Assembly: GCF_004216665.1 (NCBI RefSeq)
Contig: NZ_SGWY01000002.1
Span: 162,685-226,684 of the forward strand
Source of the DNA: Agromyces ramosus
Lineage (GTDB): Bacteria > Actinomycetota > Actinomycetes > Actinomycetales > Microbacteriaceae
DNA: 64,000 bases
Direction: 5' to 3'
Part shown: in pieces, positions 48,651-57,560 of the stretch
Numbering within the stretch: position 1 is the first letter of the stretch
Layout: each line of letters opens with the position of its first letter
The notes under the pieces: model-generated
Told to the model about the DNA's origin: nothing
Seen by the model: only the letters and a program-made list of their open reading frames with translations
Databases searched by the model: none
Translations under genes and position numbers: made by a program

Positions 48651-49703
48651 ATGCCCGATCAGCACCACCCGGCGGCGCCGCCGCTCGTCGGCGTCTCCTA
48701 CGTCATGCCGGTGCTGAACGATGCGACGCACGTTCGGGCGGCCGTCGAGTCGATCCTCGCGCAGGACTACGCGGGCCCCGTCGAGGTGCTCATCGCACTG
48801 GGCCCGTCGATCGACGGCACGGCTGAGCTCGTCGCCGACCTGGCCACCCGGGACGCGCGCGTGCGCGTGCTCGAGAACGAGGTGGGTTCGACGCCCGCCG
48901 GCCTGAACATCGGCATCCGGGCGGCACGGTACCCGGTCGTCGTGCGTGTCGACTCCCACTCGATGCTGCCGGTCGACTACGCCCGGGTCGCGCTCGGCGT
49001 GCTGGAGCGCACCGGAGCCGACAACGTGGGCGGCATCATGGACGCACGCGGCGAGACGCCGTTCGAGCAGGCCGTCGCACTCGCGTACACGACGAAGGTG
49101 GGCCTCGGCGGATCGGCGTTCCACGTCGGCGGCGCCGAGGGGCCAGCCGAGACCGTGTACCTCGGCGTCTTCCGGCGGGCGGCGCTCGAGCGGGTCGGGC
49201 TCTTCGACGAGACCATCAAGCGCGGCCAGGACTGGGAGCTGAACCGCCGGCTCCGCGAGACCGGCGGCACAGTGTGGTTCACGCCCGAGCTCGCGGTGAC
49301 GTACCGGCCGCGTTCGTCGGTCGAGCGCCTCGCCCGCCAGATGTTCTCCACCGGCCTGTGGCGCGGCGAGCTCGCGCGCCGATTCCCGGCGGCGAACGGC
49401 ATCCGCTACTTCATCCCGCCGGCGATGGTCGTCGGCGTCGCCCTCGGCCTCCTGCTCGGCATCGCCGGCATCGTGCAGGCGGCGATGGGTGCGACGCCGT
49501 GGCTGCTGCTCGGCTTCCTCGTGCCCGTGGTCTACCTGCTCTTCGTGGTCGCGGCGACCATCGCCTACGGTCGTGGGCGCAGCGGCGCCGTGGCCGGGTG
49601 GTTTCTCGTAGTCTTGCCGTGCATACACGTCTCGTGGGGAGTCGGCTTCGTGCTCGGATACCTCTCGCTGACGAGCAACATCGCCAAGCACACGGGAAGG
49701 TGA
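48651..49703 (+). CDS. Family 2 glycosyltransferase, ExoA-like, with membrane domain
   Basis: 350 residues. GT-A domain at about 1-250: SYVMPVLNDATHVRAAVESIL, VRVDSHSMLPVDY (metal-binding DSH) and KRGQDWELNRRL (catalytic region with Gln-Asp). Three membrane helices follow to the end. ExoA-like enzymes add sugars to lipid-linked precursors at the cytoplasmic face. It is first in a plus-strand run with a CDP-alcohol phosphotransferase gene (5 bp after its stop), a second GT2 and a CDP-glycerol glycerophosphotransferase-like gene, which implies a surface glycopolymer. Confidence 0.88.
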   Translation: MPDQHHPAAPPLVGVSYVMPVLNDATHVRAAVESILAQDYAGPVEVLIALGPSIDGTAELVADLATRDARVRVLENEVGSTPAGLNIGIRAARYPVVVRVDSHSMLPVDYARVALGVLERTGADNVGGIMDARGETPFEQAVALAYTTKVGLGGSAFHVGGAEGPAETVYLGVFRRAALERVGLFDETIKRGQDWELNRRLRETGGTVWFTPELAVTYRPRSSVERLARQMFSTGLWRGELARRFPAANGIRYFIPPAMVVGVALGLLLGIAGIVQAAMGATPWLLLGFLVPVVYLLFVVAATIAYGRGRSGAVAGWFLVVLPCIHVSWGVGFVLGYLSLTSNIAKHTGR

Positions 49704-49708
49704 CGCGG

Positions 49709-50521
49709 ATGTCACAAGCCGGTCGGGCTCACGCCAGGCCCACGAGCATCGCCGAGCTCCGCGCGGTCGCCCAGCCCCCCGAGGTGCGGGGGCGGCGCAA
49801 CGCGGAGCACTGGACGGCGTCGCTGTACCTGCGCCGCTTCTCGCCGTACCTCACCTGGCTGCTGCTGAAGACGTCGATCTCGGCGAACGGCGTCACGGCG
49901 CTCATGATCCTCGTGGGCTGGTCCACCGCCGCGGCGCTGCTCATCCCAGGCATCTGGGGCGCCCTGCTCGCGGTGGTGCTCGGCCAGCTGCAGATGCTTG
50001 TCGACTGCTGCGACGGCGAGGTCGCCCGCTGGCGTCGCACCTCGTCGCCGGCCGGCGTGTTCCTCGACAAGGTCGGGCACTACACGACCGAGGCGCTCAT
50101 CCCGCTCGCACTGGGCATCCGCGCGGCCGCCTACCCGCTCGAGTTCCCGGCCGACTTCCTGTGGACGACGGTCGGCGCGCTGCTCGCACTCGTCATCGTC
50201 CTGAACAAGGCGCTGAACGACATGGTGCACGTCGCGCGCGCGAACGCGGGGCTGCCGAAGCTGGCCGACACCCACGGCGAGACCGCGCCGCGCGGTGGCC
50301 TGATCGCGAAGCTCCGCAAGGCGGCGCGCTTCCTGCCGTTCCATCGGCTCTACCACTCGGTCGAGCTCACGCTCATCGCGCTCGCCGCGGCCGTCGTCGG
50401 GCTCTTCCTCGGCCAGCCGCTCGTCGACCGCGTCGTGGTCCTCGTGCTGCTGCCGCTCGCGATCCTGTCGGTGTTCGGGCACTTCGTGGCGATCATGGCC
50501 TCACGCCGTGTCCGTTCCTGA
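49709..50521 (+). CDS. CDP-alcohol phosphatidyltransferase family protein with variant active site
   Basis: 270 residues with about six hydrophobic segments. The family signature D-x2-DG-x2-AR-x8-G-x3-D-x3-D is present as DCCDGEVARWRRTSSPAG followed by VFLDKVGHY (about 92-118). The last Asp, thought to be the catalytic base, is His here. A substrate switch or altered mechanism is possible. The family transfers a phospho-alcohol from CDP-alcohol to an acceptor hydroxyl. GGAAGG lies eight bases before the ATG. It overlaps the next GT2 gene by 14 bp. Given the neighbours it probably works in polymer synthesis rather than bulk phospholipid synthesis. Confidence 0.85.
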   Translation: MSQAGRAHARPTSIAELRAVAQPPEVRGRRNAEHWTASLYLRRFSPYLTWLLLKTSISANGVTALMILVGWSTAAALLIPGIWGALLAVVLGQLQMLVDCCDGEVARWRRTSSPAGVFLDKVGHYTTEALIPLALGIRAAAYPLEFPADFLWTTVGALLALVIVLNKALNDMVHVARANAGLPKLADTHGETAPRGGLIAKLRKAARFLPFHRLYHSVELTLIALAAAVVGLFLGQPLVDRVVVLVLLPLAILSVFGHFVAIMASRRVRS

Positions 50522-51428
50522 CCGCGGCGCCGGTTCGCCCGCCGCGCCGCGCCGCCCCCGGGTCGGCGTGGTCGTGCTCACCATGGGCACCCGCCCCGAC
50601 GACCTCGCGCGGGGCATCCGGAGCGTGCTCGACCAGCAGGACGTGGACGTCGACGTGGTGTGCGTCGGCAACGGCTGGGACCCGGCGACCGCCGATCCGG
50701 CGCTGCCGGTGAGCGTGAAGGCCCTGCACCTGCCCGAGAACCTCGGCATCCCGGCCGGCCGCAATCGCGGCGTGCCCGTCGTGCACGGCGACGTGCTGTT
50801 CTTCCTCGACGACGACGCCTTCCTGCCCGATGAGCGATTCCTCGCCGACGGATGCCGCATGCTGGCCGAGCGGCCCGAGCTCGGCCTCGTCCAGCCCCGA
50901 GTCGTCGACCCCACGGGCCTGGTCTCGCCGCGGCGGTGGATCCCGCGCATCCGCAAGGGCGACCCGGCGCACTCGAGCAACGTGTTCTCGTGCTGGGAGG
51001 GCGCGGTGCTCATGCCGCGTGCGGCGTTCGAGGCGACGGGCGGCTGGGCCGACCCGTTCTTCTACGCCCACGAGGGCATCGAGCTCGCCTGGCGCGTCTG
51101 GGACACCGGTCGCGTCGCCTGGTACGCCGGCGACCTCGAGGCGGGGCATCCGGTCATCGACCCTGCTCGGCATGCCTACTACTACCGCCTGAACGCGCGG
51201 AACCGCGTGTGGCTCGCGCGGCGCAACCTGCCGATGGTGCTCGTCCCGCTCTACGTGGGCTCGTGGACGGCCATCCAGGTGCTGCGCTGGGCACGGAATC
51301 CGTCGGCGCTCCGCGCGTGGTTCGGCGGCTGGCGCGCGGGCTGGCGCGAGCACCCGGGGGAACGGCGCCCGATGCGCTGGCGCACGGTGTGGCGCATGAC
51401 GCTCGCGGGCCGGCCACCGGTCGTCTGA
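50508..51428 (+). CDS. Family 2 glycosyltransferase
   Basis: 306 residues, soluble GT-A domain: VGVVVLTMGTRPDDLARGI, GNGWDPATADP, LPENLGIPAGRNRG and VLFFLDDDAFLPD (DDD metal site, about 98-110), then ATGGWADPFFYAHEGIELAWR with the conserved acceptor-side Glu. A basic, Trp-rich C-terminus (RARW-, GWRAGWREHPGERR) may bind the membrane. The rhamnosyl/galactosyl-transferase type is plausible but the sugar is unknown. GTG start inside the end of the CDP-alcohol phosphotransferase gene, so coupled. Confidence 0.88.
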   Translation: MSVPDRGAGSPAAPRRPRVGVVVLTMGTRPDDLARGIRSVLDQQDVDVDVVCVGNGWDPATADPALPVSVKALHLPENLGIPAGRNRGVPVVHGDVLFFLDDDAFLPDERFLADGCRMLAERPELGLVQPRVVDPTGLVSPRRWIPRIRKGDPAHSSNVFSCWEGAVLMPRAAFEATGGWADPFFYAHEGIELAWRVWDTGRVAWYAGDLEAGHPVIDPARHAYYYRLNARNRVWLARRNLPMVLVPLYVGSWTAIQVLRWARNPSALRAWFGGWRAGWREHPGERRPMRWRTVWRMTLAGRPPVV

Positions 51429-51447
51429 CTCCCGGCCACGCCTTCGC

Positions 51448-51453
51448 TACCCT
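51448..51453 (+). promoter_or_regulatory. -10 box of the glycerophosphotransferase-like gene
   Basis: TACCCT, 6 nt before GTG 51460; leaderless, so this gene has its own promoter within the cluster. Confidence 0.5.
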
Positions 51454-51459
51454 TGGACG

Positions 51460-52755
51460 GTGGGAGTGCGGAGAGATGCGCAGCGCGCCGTCAAGCTGGC
51501 CAGGGACATCATGTGGTCGAGGCGCGCCCAGCGGGAGCTGCTGAGGAAGCTCGCCGATCGTCCCCCGTTCGAGCCGCACCGCTTCCGCGTCGGCGTCTAC
51601 TTCGCCGACGGGCGGGTCAACCTCTACCAGCTGCGCCAGTGGTATCGGCCCCTCGCGGAGCTCGCCACGCGGCATCCGGTGCTCATCCTCAGCCGCGCGT
51701 CGGGGTCGGCGCTCGAGCTCCTCGACGAGTCGCCCCTGCCCGTGGCCTACGTGCGGCGCGTCGCGGACCTCGAGCAGGTGATCCAGGAGCAGGACCTGCA
51801 CGTCGTGTTCTACGTGAACCAGAACGCCAAGAACTTCCAGATGATGCGCTACGGGCGCCGTTGGCACGTGTTCATCAACCACGGCGAGTCCGACAAGATG
51901 TACATGACGACCAACCAGTTCAAGGCGTACGACTACGCGCTCATCGCGGGCGACGCGGCGCGGGCCCGGCTCGAGAAGGTGCTCTGGGACTACGACTTCG
52001 ACAAGCGCGCCATCCCCATCGGGCGCCCGCAGGCCGACCACTACCTCGACGGGTCGCCGCTGCCGTACACGCCCGACGACCGCGAGGTGGTGCTGTACGC
52101 GCCCACCTGGGAGGGCGACCGAGGTGCCGCCGCCTACGGATCGATCGCGTCGCACGGCGTCGCGCTCGTGCGCGGACTGCTCGCCACCGGGCGCCATCGC
52201 CTGATCTACCGACCGCACCCGCGGTCCGGAGTGGTCGATCGCCTGTACGGCGCCGCCAATCGCGAGATCATTGCGGCCATCGCAGCCGCGAACGCGGCGG
52301 ACCCGATGGCGCGGCACGTCTACGACGACGGCCCGTCGCTCGGCTGGCAGCTCGCGGCCGCCGACGTCGCGATCGTCGACATCTCGGCGATGGTCTACGA
52401 CCGACTCGCCGCGGGCAAGCCGCTGCTCATCACCCGTCCCGCGAATCCCGAGGCCGAGATCGACACGGGCGGCTACCTCCAGGCGTGCGAGTGGCTCGAC
52501 GCCTCGGATGCGGCGACGATGGTCGAGCGCGTCGACGAGGTCGCCCACGACGCGGCTGCCCTCGCGAGACTCGGCGTCTGGGTCGAGCGGTACTTCGGGG
52601 ACACGACCCCCGGCGTCACGACTGCGCGCTTCCACGCGGCGGTCGACCACCTCATGGCCGAATGGGAGCGGTTCGCCGTGCTGCATGCGGGCGACGGCGA
52701 CATCGACGAGTTCGAGGAGGAGGACGAGGACGAAGCCGAGACGCTCGGCGCCTAG
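51460..52755 (+). CDS. CDP-glycerol glycerophosphotransferase-like protein (TagB/TagF family)
   Basis: 431 residues, GT-B-like fold. The family motifs are VFINHGESDKMYMTTNQFKAYD (N-lobe His), RREVVLYAPTWEG-type strand (here DREVVLYAPTWEGDR), RLIYRPHPRSG (His-Pro of the C-lobe) and AADVAIVDISAMVYDRLAAGKP, then an acidic tail (DEFEEEDEDEAE). TagB/TagF enzymes prime or polymerise glycerol-phosphate in wall teichoic acids; here the donor could be CDP-glycerol or another CDP-polyol. It follows the GT2 genes and precedes, on the other strand, a TagGH-like exporter. GTG leaderless. Confidence 0.88.
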   Translation: MGVRRDAQRAVKLARDIMWSRRAQRELLRKLADRPPFEPHRFRVGVYFADGRVNLYQLRQWYRPLAELATRHPVLILSRASGSALELLDESPLPVAYVRRVADLEQVIQEQDLHVVFYVNQNAKNFQMMRYGRRWHVFINHGESDKMYMTTNQFKAYDYALIAGDAARARLEKVLWDYDFDKRAIPIGRPQADHYLDGSPLPYTPDDREVVLYAPTWEGDRGAAAYGSIASHGVALVRGLLATGRHRLIYRPHPRSGVVDRLYGAANREIIAAIAAANAADPMARHVYDDGPSLGWQLAAADVAIVDISAMVYDRLAAGKPLLITRPANPEAEIDTGGYLQACEWLDASDAATMVERVDEVAHDAAALARLGVWVERYFGDTTPGVTTARFHAAVDHLMAEWERFAVLHAGDGDIDEFEEEDEDEAETLGA

Positions 52756-52842
52756 GGCTCGCCCGACGAACGCGGGCTGCGGTCCTGGCCCCGCAGGGCA
52801 TGGAACCCGTGTCTCAGGACGTGCCCCGACCGCCCGCGGCGC

Positions 52843-53430
52843 TCAGCGCGGCAGGGGGTTCGGCCCGGTCGCCGTGACCAGCCGCTGCGGGACCCAGCCG
52901 TCGACATGGTGGATGCCGTCGAACGTCCCGCCCTGCAGCTCGATCACCGCGCGCAGCGAGTGGCGGTGGAACTTCACGTGGGTGAAGTCCTCGAACAGGA
53001 TGTAGTAGGGCTCGTTCCACGCGTTCTGGAACTGCTGGCCGGTCAGCACCGCCCGATGCCGGCGCGAGAACGCGTCGACCTCCTCGCCGACGACCACGCC
53101 GAAGTGCTCCATGCCCATCTTGTAGACGCGCTGGTGGACCGGCGGGATGAGCTCGATGAGCGGGATCACCTGGCCGTCGAGGACGCGGAGCGGCTCGGCG
53201 AGGAGGATCATGGACATCGGCCGCCCGTTCCACACGCCTTCCATGTTGGCGACGGCGTGGCGTTCGAGCAGGGTCCGCAGGTGGACGTACTGGTCCCACT
53301 CAGGGACGCGGACGGCGAGGTGACCCAGCTCGTACGGCGCGATGTCGATGCCCCGGGCGAGCAGGCGGTCGCGCTGCTGCGCGGCGAACGCCCGATAGTC
53401 CCCGATGATGTCGCCGACCGGATCGGCCAT
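52843..53430 (-). CDS. YecM/VOC-fold family protein
   Basis: 195 residues. The sequence YELGHLAVRVPEWDQYVHLR (about 31-50), MSMILLAEPLRV, RVYKMGMEHFGVVVGEEVDAF and KFHRHSLRAVIELQGGTFDG fits the YecM-type glyoxalase/VOC fold with conserved His and Glu residues placed to bind a metal. No reaction is known. AGGAGG lies just before the ATG. It follows the hydrophobic-protein gene by 28 bp on the same strand. A link to polymer synthesis is not evident. Confidence 0.75.
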   Translation of the reverse strand: MADPVGDIIGDYRAFAAQQRDRLLARGIDIAPYELGHLAVRVPEWDQYVHLRTLLERHAVANMEGVWNGRPMSMILLAEPLRVLDGQVIPLIELIPPVHQRVYKMGMEHFGVVVGEEVDAFSRRHRAVLTGQQFQNAWNEPYYILFEDFTHVKFHRHSLRAVIELQGGTFDGIHHVDGWVPQRLVTATGPNPLPR

Positions 53431-53458
53431 CGCCCTCCTCCTCTCGGCCGCCGCCATC

Positions 53459-54478
53459 CTACGACGAGGACTGCGACGGCGCGTCGGCTCCGGGTGCCGC
53501 CGCATCCTCGTCGGCCTGCTTCTTCGAACGCCCGATTCCGCGGGTCGCCCGCGAGGCGACCGTGCGGAGGCCTCGGCTGGTGGAGAGGGCGAGGTCGCCC
53601 ACGGCGGCGCCGGCGCGCGTGAGCCGCGACGTGGCGGACTGGAGGATCGAGTCGCCCTCGCGTGGTTCGAGCTCGTGCGGCAGCACCTGCGGCGGCGCAC
53701 CAAACGCGAGTCGGGACTGCCGGAGGACCCTGCGGCCGAGGATGTGATTGCCCGCGCCGCCGATCGCCGCGCCGATGCCGAACGGGATGGCCTTGCCGAT
53801 GATGCCGGCGCCGCCGCGCACCGCGAACTGCCGCACGAACACGTGCCGCAGCCGGTCGACCACGGTGCCCATGACCGCCTTCGGCATCGTGTTGGTGATG
53901 AGCTCGCCCCAGTAGGCATTACGGGCGATGCCGCTGCCGGAGGCCTGCCCGGCGAACTGGCGCACGAGGTCGATGCCCTCGTTGCCGAGCATGAGCGTCA
54001 TCACCAGGGCGCGGGCACGATCGGGGTTGTCGATCGCGATGCCGTGCACCTCGGCGACCGACTGCGCGAAGAGTGCGGTGGCCTCGAGGAATCCGGCCGT
54101 CTCGACGCCGGAGAGCACGAGCGTGATGCCGGTGCTGATGCCCGGGATGACGGCCGTGGCGCCGACGGCCGCGCCACCGGTCGTGACCGCGGCCAGGTAG
54201 CGGCGCTCGAGGATCCGCACGATCTGCTCGGGTGTCGCGTTCGGGGAGCGCCGGCGGATGCCGCGCAGGTGCGCCACGACGACGGGCCGCTGGATGGAGA
54301 GCACCGCGTCGATCCCGCGCTCCACGCCGTGGGCTCGCCCGTCGTCATGCGGGGCACCGGCTGCGCCGGCGCCCTGGGACGCCCCCGCGTCCTGTCCCTC
54401 CGCGGTCGACGCCGAGGGCTGCCCCTCGCGAGGGGCGTCTCCGCCCATCGACGTGATCTTGTGCACGCGTTCGCTCAT
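53459..54478 (-). CDS. Gly/Ala-rich hydrophobic protein of unknown function (possibly EcsC-like)
   Basis: 339 residues. A disordered Gly/Ala/Ser-rich N-terminus (about 1-50) is followed by a helical region with several moderately hydrophobic stretches (GGAAVGATAVIPGISTGITL, ETAGFLEATALFAQSVAEVHG, GGAGIIGKAIPFGIGAAIGGAG) and a basic Ser/Arg-rich C-terminus (SRGLRTVASRATRGIGRSKK). The pattern recalls EcsC-type membrane-associated proteins, but I am not sure. Start ATG with TAGGAT 9 nt upstream. It heads a two-gene unit with the YecM-like gene, and a 14-bp palindrome lies about 70 bp upstream. Confidence 0.7.
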   Translation of the reverse strand: MSERVHKITSMGGDAPREGQPSASTAEGQDAGASQGAGAAGAPHDDGRAHGVERGIDAVLSIQRPVVVAHLRGIRRRSPNATPEQIVRILERRYLAAVTTGGAAVGATAVIPGISTGITLVLSGVETAGFLEATALFAQSVAEVHGIAIDNPDRARALVMTLMLGNEGIDLVRQFAGQASGSGIARNAYWGELITNTMPKAVMGTVVDRLRHVFVRQFAVRGGAGIIGKAIPFGIGAAIGGAGNHILGRRVLRQSRLAFGAPPQVLPHELEPREGDSILQSATSRLTRAGAAVGDLALSTSRGLRTVASRATRGIGRSKKQADEDAAAPGADAPSQSSS

Positions 54479-54487
54479 GGTGGGACG

Positions 54488-54493
54488 ATCCTA
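54488..54493 (-). promoter_or_regulatory. -10 box of the hydrophobic-protein gene
   Basis: TAGGAT, 9 nt before ATG 54478, giving at most a 2-3 nt leader. Confidence 0.4.
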
Positions 54494-54550
54494 AGCTCCG
54501 AGGCCGTGAGGTCGCCCGAACCCGGGGGAGGCTCGCGTCGCGTTCCCGGA

Positions 54551-54564
54551 TGCGGTATACCGCA
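54551..54564. promoter_or_regulatory. Candidate operator palindrome
   Basis: TGCGGTATACCGCA, a perfect 14-bp palindrome in the 97-bp gap between the TagH-like stop and the hydrophobic-protein gene. The GTATAC core is rare in this background. The form resembles GntR- or TetR-type operators; no regulator gene is adjacent. Confidence 0.45.
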
Positions 54565-54575
54565 GGCGGAGCGGC

Positions 54576-55352
54576 CTACTTCACCGTGCCGTGGTCGGCG
54601 TTGTAGCGGTCGAGCACCTCGTCGATGGGCGCGTCGAGCACGAGCGCGCCCTTGTCGAGGTAGAGCCCGCGCGTGCAGAACCGGCGCAGGTCGCGTTCGT
54701 TGTGCGAGACGAAGAAGAGCGTGCGCCCGCCCGCCAGGAGCTCGTCGATCCGCCGGTAGCACTTCTCGCGGAACGCCTTGTCGCCGACCGCGAGCACCTC
54801 GTCGACGAGCAGGATCGGCTCCTCGAGCTGGGAGATCACGGCGAAGGCGATGCGCACCTTCATGCCGCTCGACAGGTGCTTGTAGGGCGTGTCGAGGAAG
54901 TCGCCGATGTCGGCGAACTCGATGATCTCCTCGAACTTCGCATCGATCTGCGACCTCGTCATGCCGTGCAGCCCCGCCGTGAGGTACACGTTGTCGCGCA
55001 CCGTCAGGTCCTCGACGAACCCTCCGGTGATCTCGATGAGCGGCGCCACGCCGCCGGTGACCTCGACCGTGCCCTCGTCGGCGATCATCACGCCCGCCAC
55101 CAGCTTGAGCAGCGTCGACTTGCCCTGCCCGTTGCGGCCGACCACGCCGATCGCCTCGCCGGGTCGCACCTCGATCGACACGTCACGCAGCGCCCAGAAC
55201 TCTCCGGGGCGCGTGCGGCGGCGGCGCCCGGCGAGCAGGTCCTTGAACGAGCGTCGGCCGCGCCGATTGCGGCGGAAGCGGATGCCGAGCCCGTGGGCGC
55301 GGATCGCGTGTGTCTCGGTCGCGGCGAGTTCGGCCGCGGCGGCATCCGTCAT
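54576..55352 (-). CDS. ABC transporter ATP-binding protein, polysaccharide/teichoic acid exporter (TagH/Wzt-like)
   Basis: 258 residues. Walker A GVVGRNGQGKSTLLK (about 88-102), Q-loop region GGVAPLIEITGGF, signature LSSGMKVRIAFA, Walker B PILLVDEVLAVGD and switch His in FVSHNERDL. The FWALRDVSIEVRPGEAIG opening and the GLHGMTRSQI stretch are typical of the Wzt/TagH subfamily, which powers export of lipid-linked O-antigen or teichoic acid. It lacks the extra C-terminal carbohydrate-binding domain of some Wzt proteins. AAGGAG precedes the ATG, whose A overlaps the permease stop by one base. Confidence 0.93.
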   Translation of the reverse strand: MTDAAAAELAATETHAIRAHGLGIRFRRNRRGRRSFKDLLAGRRRRTRPGEFWALRDVSIEVRPGEAIGVVGRNGQGKSTLLKLVAGVMIADEGTVEVTGGVAPLIEITGGFVEDLTVRDNVYLTAGLHGMTRSQIDAKFEEIIEFADIGDFLDTPYKHLSSGMKVRIAFAVISQLEEPILLVDEVLAVGDKAFREKCYRRIDELLAGGRTLFFVSHNERDLRRFCTRGLYLDKGALVLDAPIDEVLDRYNADHGTVK

Positions 55353-56152
55353 CAGATCTCCTTCAGCACCTGGCGCACGCTGCCGCGGAACACGAGGAGG
55401 CCGACGGCGAGCAGGGCGACCGACATGAGCGCCGCGATCACGACGTTGAACCAGTCGAGCTCGTCGGGGAAGAATCCCGCGCGGTAGAGGCCGAAGATGC
55501 CCGACAGCGGGTTGAACGCCGCCCAGATGTGCAGCTCGGAGGGCAGGTTCGACACCCCGTAGATGATGGGCGAGGCGTAGAACAGGAACCGGAGGATGAG
55601 CTTGACGGCGCGCTCGAGGTCGCGGAAGAACACCACCAGGGGAGCGACGATGAGGGCGACCCCCACCGTGAGGATCGCCTGCAGCAGGATCGCCAGCGGG
55701 AACAGCAGCAGTTCCCAGCCGACCGTCGCACCGAACACGATGGCGAACAGCGCGAGCACCGGAAGCGACAGCAGGAACTCGATGCCCTTCGACAGCACGA
55801 TGCGATTGACCCAGATGGTGCGGGGGATCTTGGTCGACCGCACGAGCTTGGCGTCCTTCAGGAACGCGCGCGTCGAGTCGGAGACGGCGCCGTTGAACCA
55901 CATCCACGGCAGCAGCGCCGAGAGCAGGAAGACGATGTAGGGCTCGGTGCCCACCGGCCGCTGGAACACCTGCGTGAAGACGAACCAGTAGATGCCCGCC
56001 ATCACGAGCGGATCGAGCACCGACCAGAGGTAGCCGAGCGCCGAGGTCGAGTACCGCACCTTCAGGTCGCGGGTGGTGAGGAGCCAGAGCGAGTGCCGGT
56101 ATCGTGCCCACGGCGTCCGCTGCAGCGGATGCGTGTCGGCGTAGCTCATCAC
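55352..56152 (-). CDS. ABC transporter permease, polysaccharide/teichoic acid exporter (TagG/Wzm-like)
   Basis: 266 residues, six membrane helices, ABC-2 type. The cytoplasmic interface helix SLWLLTTRDLKVRYSTSALGYLW (split over about 17-40) and the LVRSTKIPRTIWVNRIVLSK loop match Wzm/TagG permeases. It forms the exporter with the TagH-like protein (1-bp overlap). The GTG at 56152 is 6 nt after TACGAT; the next codon is ATG, an alternative. It is divergent from a small membrane protein gene. Export would move a lipid-linked polymer made by the 48.6-52.8 kb genes. Confidence 0.93.
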   Translation of the reverse strand: MMSYADTHPLQRTPWARYRHSLWLLTTRDLKVRYSTSALGYLWSVLDPLVMAGIYWFVFTQVFQRPVGTEPYIVFLLSALLPWMWFNGAVSDSTRAFLKDAKLVRSTKIPRTIWVNRIVLSKGIEFLLSLPVLALFAIVFGATVGWELLLFPLAILLQAILTVGVALIVAPLVVFFRDLERAVKLILRFLFYASPIIYGVSNLPSELHIWAAFNPLSGIFGLYRAGFFPDELDWFNVVIAALMSVALLAVGLLVFRGSVRQVLKEI

Positions 56153-56158
56153 GATCTC

Positions 56159-56185
56159 ATCGTAGATGCCGCGCGGCGGTAGGTT
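56159..56185. promoter_or_regulatory. Back-to-back promoters: TagG-like (-) and ECF-type S protein (+)
   Basis: TACGAT on the minus strand (56159-56164), 6 nt before GTG 56152, and TAGGTT on the plus strand (56180-56185), giving a leader of about 40 nt to GTG 56232. The two -10 boxes are only 15 bp apart, so the two transcription units should interfere. Confidence 0.5.
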
Positions 56186-56231
56186 TGATGCAGGCTGGCG
56201 GCGCGTGCCGCGCCCGGTCGGAAGGAACGTC

Positions 56232-56789
56232 GTGCACCGCACCAGTACCCGCGTGCTCCTGAGTTGCGCCGCGATCGGCGTGGGCGGCGGTCTCGTCGCC
56301 GGCCCCTCCGCCTACCTCGCGGCCGCGTTCGCGGCGTTCGGGCCGATCCTGTACGGACTCACGGTGGGCCTGCACTTCCTCCCGAGCGTCGTCGCGCTCG
56401 CCCTGCTGAAGCGACCGGGCACCGCGGTGCTCGCCGGCGTGATCGCCGGGCTCGTCGGCACGGCCTTCGCCCCGTGGTGGATCGGACGCTTCATCGGCAC
56501 CGGCCTGCTCGTGGGCGTGCTGCTCGAGCTGCCGTTCCTCATCACGAGATACCGGCGATGGGATCCGTGGCTGTTCTACGTGTCCGCGGTGTTCTCCGGG
56601 CTCGTGCTGGCCATCGCGGTGTTCATCGGGCTCGGCGCCGAGCACTACGCCTGGTGGGCCTGGGCCATCGCCCTGCCCCTCTGGGTCGCCAGCCCCGTGC
56701 TCTTCACGTGGATCGGCCGGGTGATCGCCGCACGGCTCGCGAGGGCCGGCGTCGCCCAGCTGCCGTCGCGCGAGGCGCGCCCGGGCTGA
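56232..56789 (+). CDS. Six-helix membrane protein, ECF-transporter S-component-like
   Basis: 185 residues, almost wholly hydrophobic with about six helices (GVGGGLVAGPSAYLAAAFAA, ILYGLTVGLHFLPSVVALAL, AVLAGVIAGLVGTAFAPWW, and so on). Size and layout fit ECF S-components, substrate-binding subunits for vitamins or metals. No EcfA or EcfT gene is present nearby, and I see no riboswitch in the 40-nt leader, so the ligand is unknown. AAGGA lies five bases before the GTG. It converges on the nucleotidyltransferase gene with a strong hairpin between. Confidence 0.65.
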   Translation: MHRTSTRVLLSCAAIGVGGGLVAGPSAYLAAAFAAFGPILYGLTVGLHFLPSVVALALLKRPGTAVLAGVIAGLVGTAFAPWWIGRFIGTGLLVGVLLELPFLITRYRRWDPWLFYVSAVFSGLVLAIAVFIGLGAEHYAWWAWAIALPLWVASPVLFTWIGRVIAARLARAGVAQLPSREARPG

Positions 56790-56817
56790 GCGGCGGGCGC
56801 GAGCCGGGCCGGGATGC

Positions 56818-56849
56818 GAAGAGCGGATGCCTCGAGGCATCCGCTCTTC
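56818..56849. terminator. Bidirectional terminator between convergent genes
   Basis: GAAGAGCGGATGCC and GGCATCCGCTCTTC form a perfect 14-bp stem with loop TCGA. The stem contains the GCGGATGCC word in inverted pairing. It lies midway between the convergent S-component-like and nucleotidyltransferase genes. Confidence 0.85.
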
Positions 56850-56867
56850 ACTGCTGTGGTGCGGTGA

Positions 56868-57560
56868 TCACACGAAGTGGTTCGCACGCTCCAGGTCTTC
56901 GGCGAAGTCGACCTCGACCGCATAGAGGTCGGAGATGTCCATCGGCTCGACGAGCATGCCGTTCTTCTCGATCGCGAGCTCGATGCCGCGCTCGAAGTAG
57001 TCCTGGTCGCCGACGCGCCCGAGGTGCGCGAGCAGTGCGGCCTTGTCGCGGCTCGACACGTAGTTGATGCCGACCGCCTCGCCGAGGCCGCCCTTGACCG
57101 TCTTGGAGAGCTCGTTGATGTAGCCCTCGGCGGTGGTCGTGTACTTCACCTCTTCGTCGGACACCTTGGCGGTGTTGACGGTGACGAACGACTGGTCGCG
57201 CGCGATGAACGGCAGCGCGCGGTCGAGGATGCGCGGGTCGAACACGACGTCGCCGTTCATCCACAGCACGCCGCCCGCCTGCGACGCCGCGAGGGCGCGC
57301 ATGAGGCTCTTCGAGGTGTTCGTCTGGTCGTACTCCTCGTTGTAGACGAAGGACGCCTGCGGGAACGCCTCGATGATGTGCTCGAGCTTGTAGCCGACGA
57401 CGATCGTCACGTTGGCGTTGGCGCCGAACGCGTGCTCGATGTTGTCGAACTGCTGGCGCATGATGGTGCGGCCGTCGCTCAGTTCGGTGAGGGGTTTGGG
57501 AAGGGATCGCCCGAGCCGGCTCCCCATGCCGGCAGCGAGAATCACGATCTGGGTGGTCAC
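56868..57560 (-). CDS. NTP transferase, LicC-like (phosphocholine/polyol-phosphate cytidylyltransferase type)
   Basis: 230 residues, nucleotidyltransferase GT-A-like fold: ILAAGMGSRLGRSLPKPLTEL (split; about 7-27) holds the nucleotide loop and the catalytic Lys, VYNEEYDQTNTSKSLMRAL the base-recognition region, and GGVLWMNGDVVFDPRIL the metal Asp. The short length and NEEYDQTN pattern resemble LicC-type cytidylyltransferases, which make CDP-choline, rather than glucose-1-phosphate enzymes. It could supply the CDP-activated polyol for the CDP-alcohol phosphotransferase and TagF-like genes. AAGGAG lies five bases before the GTG. Confidence 0.85.
   Translation of the reverse strand: MTTQIVILAAGMGSRLGRSLPKPLTELSDGRTIMRQQFDNIEHAFGANANVTIVVGYKLEHIIEAFPQASFVYNEEYDQTNTSKSLMRALAASQAGGVLWMNGDVVFDPRILDRALPFIARDQSFVTVNTAKVSDEEVKYTTTAEGYINELSKTVKGGLGEAVGINYVSSRDKAALLAHLGRVGDQDYFERGIELAIEKNGMLVEPMDISDLYAVEVDFAEDLERANHFV

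Follow-up and report, generated by a model that had tools for sequence, protein, structure and literature searches.

A stretch of 64,000 nucleotides from Agromyces ramosus (contig NZ_SGWY01000002.1 of assembly GCF_004216665.1, positions 162,685 to 226,684 of the forward strand; hereafter, the window) carries a putative polyol-phosphate surface-polymer locus. The genome has a size of 3.84 Mb in 6 contigs (completeness 99.98%). Four tightly spaced genes on the plus strand encode two family-2 glycosyltransferases (GT2a and GT2b), a cytidine diphosphate (CDP)-alcohol phosphotransferase whose gene overlaps that of GT2b by 14 bp, and a TagB-like transferase. They are faced by minus-strand genes for a YecM-like protein, a 339-residue protein, a TagH-like ATPase, a TagG-like permease, and a LicC-like nucleotidyltransferase, the last two separated by a plus-strand gene for an ECF S-component-like membrane protein (Table 1). 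The family assignments of the phosphotransferase and the TagB-like protein are weak, yet above the Pfam cut-offs, and the combination of a PF04464 transferase with a TagG/TagH-type exporter, the models of which stay under the NCBIfam cut-offs, marks this region as a locus of teichoic-acid (tag/tar) type. An earlier note, made from the sequence alone, had listed six gene types here (the glycosyltransferases, phosphotransferase, TagB/TagF-like enzyme, exporter, and LicC-like enzyme), all of which were located at the positions given and in a conserved order; the YecM-like, 339-residue, and ECF S-component-like genes that lie among them were missing from its list. It had also seen no TagO or TagA in the window; a TagO candidate, a WecA-like enzyme of family PF00953, is encoded elsewhere in the genome (C1:246645-247130; L095), beside genes read by eye as ATP synthase subunits (TIGR02380: 101 bits, under the cut-off).

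Table 1 Genes of the A. ramosus locus (positions within the window)
Gene product	Position	Strand	Profile match and occurrence
GT2a, family-2 glycosyltransferase	48651-49703	+	PF00535, 63 bits; 79/80 named loci; found in both locus types
CDP-alcohol phosphotransferase, divergent subfamily	49709-50521	+	PF01066, 28 bits (cut-off 22)
GT2b glycosyltransferase	50508-51428	+	PF00535; beside the phosphotransferase in 80/80 named loci
TagB-like polyol-phosphate transferase, divergent PF04464	51460-52755	+	24.4 bits (cut-off 22.1); alignment; 70/80 named loci
YecM-like protein	52843-53430	-	PF06185, 64.5 bits; probably a passenger
339-residue protein without family, conserved in the locus	53459-54478	-	78/80 named loci
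TagH/Wzt-like export ATPase	54576-55352	-	Best NCBIfam model of TagH type, 185 bits (under the curated cut-off of 538)
TagG/Wzm-like export permease	55352-56149	-	PF01061, 54.6 bits; NCBIfam galactan export permease, 75 bits (under the cut-off)
ECF S-component-like membrane protein	56166-56789	+	PF09819; 14/80 named loci; probably a passenger
LicC-like nucleotidyltransferase, MobA fold; proposed CTP:glycerol-phosphate cytidylyltransferase	56868-57560	-	PF12804

Gene order was compared among 80 named relatives of the phosphotransferase, some of whose loci are cut by the fetched stretch or by a contig end. The GT2b, GT2a, and TagB genes accompany the phosphotransferase gene in a single relative order at the frequencies given in Table 1, and the LicC-like gene was seen in 50 and TagG/TagH in 54 of these loci, some of the others being cut. 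As far as the fetched stretches reach, the order HtrA-GT2a-phosphotransferase-GT2b-(TagB)-339-residue protein-TagH-TagG-LicC is kept. The first-listed 29 loci (83–94% identity) are all from Agromyces. The six-gene set is not a chance cluster, and the co-occurrence of its members, which the earlier note had put forward as a check, proved to be wide.

Loci that lack the phosphotransferase and GT2b hold two other PF04464 genes in their place, TagF1 (188 bits) and TagF2 (324 bits). In most loci read, GT2a and TagB enclose this pair, which is on the opposite strand, and in at least nine (L082, L099, L101, L104, L110, L112, L121, L122, and L131) GT2a is inverted and the TagF pair is found between HtrA and GT2a. 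Both locus types are flanked by HtrA and TagB, usually also by the 339-residue protein gene, the exporter, and the LicC-like gene. Two genomes of one genus (L244 and L245) share the same syntenic frame and differ in slot type; L245 also has about 8 kb extra before TagH, and TagB was seen in neither stretch. The swap is a natural genetic experiment: one genus, the same locus, and two polymer-building modules. TagF2 is best matched by the model of TarF, a glycerol-phosphate transferase (214 bits; TarL: 79, TarB: 54; all under the model cut-offs) and, judged by these profiles, is clearly TarF-like, i.e., of the CDP-glycerol-using kind.

To quantify these patterns, one set of 199 Microbacteriaceae genomes was searched for five genes. 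The phosphotransferase was found in 85 genomes (identity ≥66%, excluding 10 of 95 genomes with weak matches of 24–43% only), the LicC-like gene in 140, the TagB-like gene in 117 (identity ≥44%, excluding 6 of 123 genomes with at most 43%), TagF2 in 58 (≥40% identity and ≥170 bits, kept from 86), and TagD over the curated TIGR01518 cut-off in 10. Excluded TagF2 matches, such as those in G141 (40%, 152 bits) and G025 (35%, 208 bits), lie on another contig or more than 1 Mb from the phosphotransferase gene. Not one of the 199 genomes has both modules: none of the 58 with TagF2 encodes the phosphotransferase. The LicC-like gene accompanies the phosphotransferase in 85/85 genomes, and the 140 genomes that carry it comprise 85 with the phosphotransferase, 48 with TagF2, and 7 with neither, the last being six assemblies of at least 150 contigs and a seventh that is 83% complete. 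On trees built from the fetched loci only, the slot type changed at least seven times according to HtrA (52 rows, poorly supported) and four times according to TagB (61 rows), two of the four changes being on well-supported branches. The slot swap is recurrent, and we infer that the phosphotransferase and GT2b replace the TagF1/TagF2 pair.

A second exchange concerns TagD, the enzyme that makes CDP-glycerol in classical loci. At least one of TagB, TagF2, and the phosphotransferase occurs in 147 genomes. The LicC-like gene without TagD was found in 136 of them, TagD without the LicC-like gene in 9, the two together in none, and neither in 2 (G155 and G176); a further TagD genome (G062) lies outside the 147. 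TagD over the cut-off is absent from all 140 genomes with the LicC-like gene. Fisher p-values for this pattern overstate it and were not relied on, because they ignore relatedness and the boundary amounts to one or two events. A TagD-like match at 1e-15 is lacking in 46 of the 85 phosphotransferase genomes, in 37 of the 48 genomes with TagF2 and the LicC-like gene, and in the A. ramosus genome. A classical TagD elsewhere in A. ramosus was considered and rejected; no protein of this genome matches the TIGR01518 profile at 1e-15, the only PF01467 matches are NadD and CoaD, and the LicC-like protein itself belongs to PF12804. In genomes without a TagD-like gene, no candidate other than the LicC-like enzyme was seen for the supply of the CDP-alcohol required by TarF-like enzymes, IspD-type (TarI-like) enzymes having been outside the search. 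Most simply, the LicC-like enzyme is read as a putative replacement of TagD, predicted to make CDP-glycerol. One of the two genomes with neither gene, G155, has a TagB-like gene of 46% identity together with HtrA and the 339-residue protein gene, and no GT2a, slot genes, or LicC-like gene in the stretch (L247; C31:20000-39900), perhaps a reduced locus.

The predicted model of the LicC-like protein (mean predicted local distance difference test score [pLDDT] 77.1) has PntC as its nearest fold, then GlmU, HddC, LicC, and IPCT among others. Residues R15, K22, D104, and D218 are invariant in 21 sequences, and the MobA-like fold with its Arg, Lys, and Asp puts the protein in the LicC/PntC/IPCT-like class; the match of these residues to the active-site R, K, and D of CpgD was read by eye from the motif, unaligned. 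From the swap, the LicC fold is predicted to have a new activity.

The phosphotransferase belongs to PF01066 by profile and by fold (model mean pLDDT 77.7; AF2299: Z 17.5, root-mean-square deviation [rmsd] 4.1, 214 aligned; IPCT-DIPPS: Z 15.8, rmsd 3.7, 212 aligned). Both of these structures have been described as having a small hydrophilic pocket that suits soluble donors (PMC4634129), and we counted the likeness for a soluble CDP-alcohol donor. Its motif reads D1xxD2GxxAR-x8-GxxxD3xxxH, with His at the position of the fourth Asp (D4) and an acid at D3+8. Among 111 distinct aligned stretches of at least 200 residues (not 111 species, as two loci were taken from a small number of genomes), 102 have His and 9 have Ala at D4, the other seven signature residues are kept in >97%, and the acid at D3+8 is present in 111/111. 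The two other PF01066 enzymes of the A. ramosus genome keep the Asp at D4. The eight residues of the family have been called absolutely conserved, D4 is regarded as the likely catalytic base, and its change from Asp to Asn is reported to nearly abolish the activity of a phosphatidylinositol-phosphate (PIP) synthase (PMC4634129). The conserved acid at D3+8 was considered as a relocated catalytic acid and rejected as a new compensation, since the aligned AF2299 carries Asp at +8 as well as at +4. An altered active site is predicted within a large enzyme family.

Relatives outside the family were sought in 296 genomes from the phylum, including those of A. ramosus and its congeners. LicC-like matches at 1e-15 were found in 10 and phosphotransferase matches at 1e-8 in 19 of them. 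In three of the four outside LicC-like loci with at least 44% identity (L074, L076, and L042 of Solidesulfovibrio carbinolicus), a TagB/TagF-like gene adjoins; matches of 30–33% identity (L064-L066) were left out of the context reading. The phosphotransferase/GT2b pair was read at 38–50% identity in seven loci (L067-L073), which have a similar alcohol dehydrogenase gene beside the pair in 7/7, another nucleotidyltransferase in 6/7, and TagH in 5/7 (four of these five with TagG too). The best match of the L067 dehydrogenase is the glycerol-1-phosphate dehydrogenase model (246 bits, under the cut-off of 413), and the position of this gene beside the distant pair supports glycerol, perhaps as the 1-phosphate. 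Such a dehydrogenase was also looked for in the A. ramosus genome, where the only PF13685 match is AroB. In a genus (g90) that we infer to be Streptomyces, the phosphotransferase is found in 8/8 genomes, with no LicC-like match at 1e-15. As a separate observation, a DUF5941 domain is fused in L067 (7083-8915) to a CDP-alcohol phosphotransferase that keeps the fourth Asp (motif read by eye) and adjoins the divergent one; similar genes occur in L068-L071.

Taken together, these data are best explained by a teichoic-acid locus in which non-orthologous enzymes have taken over two functions and the building block is glycerol phosphate, a reading that we hold with slightly less than even confidence. 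Instead of TagD, the LicC-like enzyme would supply the soluble CDP-alcohol, which is most likely CDP-glycerol. The WecA-like enzyme would begin a lipid-linked saccharide, GT2a would extend it by a sugar, and in genomes that have it the TagB-like enzyme would attach the first glycerol phosphate. The membrane phosphotransferase would then transfer phosphoglycerol from the CDP-activated donor onto a hydroxyl group of a sugar, and GT2b would glycosylate the glycerol, repetition of the two steps giving a poly(glycosyl-glycerol phosphate); by family assignment, TagG/TagH would export the polymer. The swaps between loci point to the identity of the CDP-donor and to the replacement of enzymes; the model's alternation, acceptor, and stereochemistry are proposed. 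A stronger form of this model is rather doubtful: that a phosphotransferase branch without the proposed catalytic Asp forms with GT2b an alternating teichoic-acid polymerase that displaced TagF in situ, fed by the first LicC-fold cytidine triphosphate (CTP):glycerol-phosphate cytidylyltransferase. If true, it would provide one answer to how actinobacteria without LtaS make wall and lipoteichoic acids of the poly(glycerol phosphate) type. Lipoteichoic acids have been reported from Agromyces and Streptomyces although clear LtaS orthologues are said to be missing from actinobacteria, and how the acids are made is regarded as an open question (PMC3196553; for Agromyces via Gnilozub 1994, cited there). 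We found no description of this locus, the module swap, or a LicC-fold CDP-glycerol enzyme in the open-access literature; what is new is the pair of enzyme replacements and the altered phosphotransferase signature.

Several results weigh against the glycerol model. The TagD/LicC boundary corresponds to a single change on the HtrA tree, where the TagD rows form one clade, and to two on the TagB tree, and it could coincide with a change of polyol. A TagD-like gene under the cut-off (59–108 bits) is present in 56 genomes, 51 of which belong to the 140 with the LicC-like gene, and 39 of these 51 have the phosphotransferase. The nearest relative of the LicC-like protein, by fold and profile, is the phosphonate cytidylyltransferase PntC, and TagF1 matches the ribitol polymerase TarL (81 bits) slightly better than TarF (78 bits), all under the cut-offs. 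The slot swap was too rare for a sign test, with too few independent pairs, and, with His or Ala at the proposed catalytic base, phosphotransferase activity itself is not certain. TagB is missing from 15 of the 85 phosphotransferase genomes and is therefore not required for the retention of the pair. Beside the LicC-like gene of the fourth outside locus (L075), we found no TagB/TagF-like gene, but a GT2b-like gene and both TagG and TagH lie no more than 7 kb away. Several of the TagD-like genes under the cut-off are separated by no more than about 2 kb from a weak second homologue of the phosphotransferase (by coordinates; two stretches read). In the two stretches, L248 (G165:C1:541575-542755) and L249 (G120:C1:1084686-1085936), the two genes stand side by side, and this second type of locus is perhaps another CDP-alcohol route.

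The earlier note had favoured a different CDP-activated alcohol, such as choline or inositol. Its description of a polyol-phosphate surface-polymer locus without TagD, built of widely co-occurring genes, holds, but the case for a different alcohol is weakened, because other genomes that share the TagB/TagF set carry TagD in the place of the LicC-like gene, because the genes exchanged for the phosphotransferase are TagF1 and the TarF-like TagF2, and because the distant phosphotransferase/GT2 pairs adjoin a glycerol-1-phosphate-dehydrogenase-like gene in all seven loci. It is unlikely in our view that the LicC-like enzyme acts on a different alcohol phosphate (choline, inositol, ribitol, glycerate, or a phosphonate, e.g., 2-aminoethylphosphonate) and that the polymer bears this group, even though this would agree with PntC as the nearest fold and profile and LicC and IPCT among the next, with the archaetidylinositol-phosphate synthase and di-myo-inositol-phosphate synthase (DIPPS) models nearest to the phosphotransferase, with the TarL match of TagF1, and with reports that related enzymes use phosphosugars, phosphocholine, phosphoglutamine, and phosphoglycerate (PMC12275187). 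The ten window open reading frames (ORFs) scanned include no other choline, inositol, or phosphonate gene, and on this indirect evidence an exotic alcohol appears less likely than glycerol. We consider it improbable that the phosphotransferase and GT2b make a side-branch or a lipid anchor (lipoteichoic acid) while another enzyme, such as a GT2-TagF fusion, makes the chain: a GT2-PF04464 fusion (1020-residue ORF) is present in the genome, and the lipoteichoic acids reported from Agromyces and the stated lack of clear LtaS orthologues (PMC3196553) would fit, but the strict exclusivity with the TagF1+TagF2 pair suggests the same step and the adjoining TagG/TagH fits polymer export. The fusion lies in a galactofuranan-type locus (L094; G000:C1:965443-966537) that also encodes UDP-galactopyranose mutase, an enzyme similar to GlfT2, and a TagG/TagH-like exporter of its own, and is likely a second CDP-alcohol user in this genome without TagD.

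Among the remaining genes of the locus, the 339-residue protein has no Pfam or NCBIfam match over the cut-off and is a candidate for an unrecognized component of the polymer machinery. The YecM-like and ECF S-component-like genes are probably passengers, because the former has no match in the other mapped loci, being found in the window only, and the latter occurs in few of the named loci.

Compared to known systems, the LicC-like protein has the same nucleotidyltransferase fold as LicC (pneumococcal lic1; 15–16% identity over the fold) and PntC (22–24%), and no choline or phosphonate gene was found among the scanned ORFs of the window. A precedent for a non-TagD fold that activates a three-carbon phosphate is CpgD, the CTP:phosphoglycerate cytidylyltransferase of Caulobacter, which its authors describe as having no homology to TagD (PMC12275187); its substrate is glycerate, and its product serves a sphingolipid (PMC12275187, PMC13228409). 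IPCT-DIPPS and AF2299 have the closest or near-closest folds and share the combination of a MobA-like-fold cytidylyltransferase with a CDP-alcohol phosphotransferase, whereas the Agromyces locus has separate genes, an exporter, and glycosyltransferases, and has lost the fourth signature Asp. An araM/CDP-alcohol phosphotransferase/GT2/TagGH region has been described for Streptomyces (PMC13118837). The Streptomyces-type region has the phosphotransferase (42–44% identity, genus g90) and GT2b (45–48%, L067-L069) beside TagG/TagH in common with the locus, and differs in having another nucleotidyltransferase, the glycerol-1-phosphate-dehydrogenase-like gene, and DUF5941, with no TagB in the three stretches read. 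The tag/tar systems of Bacillus subtilis and Staphylococcus aureus share the TagB-like transferase and the TagG/TagH exporter with A. ramosus, and TagF/TarF-like enzymes, as well as TagD (10 of 199), are present in sister genomes, whereas A. ramosus has a LicC-like nucleotidyltransferase instead of TagD and the phosphotransferase with GT2b instead of the TagF pair.

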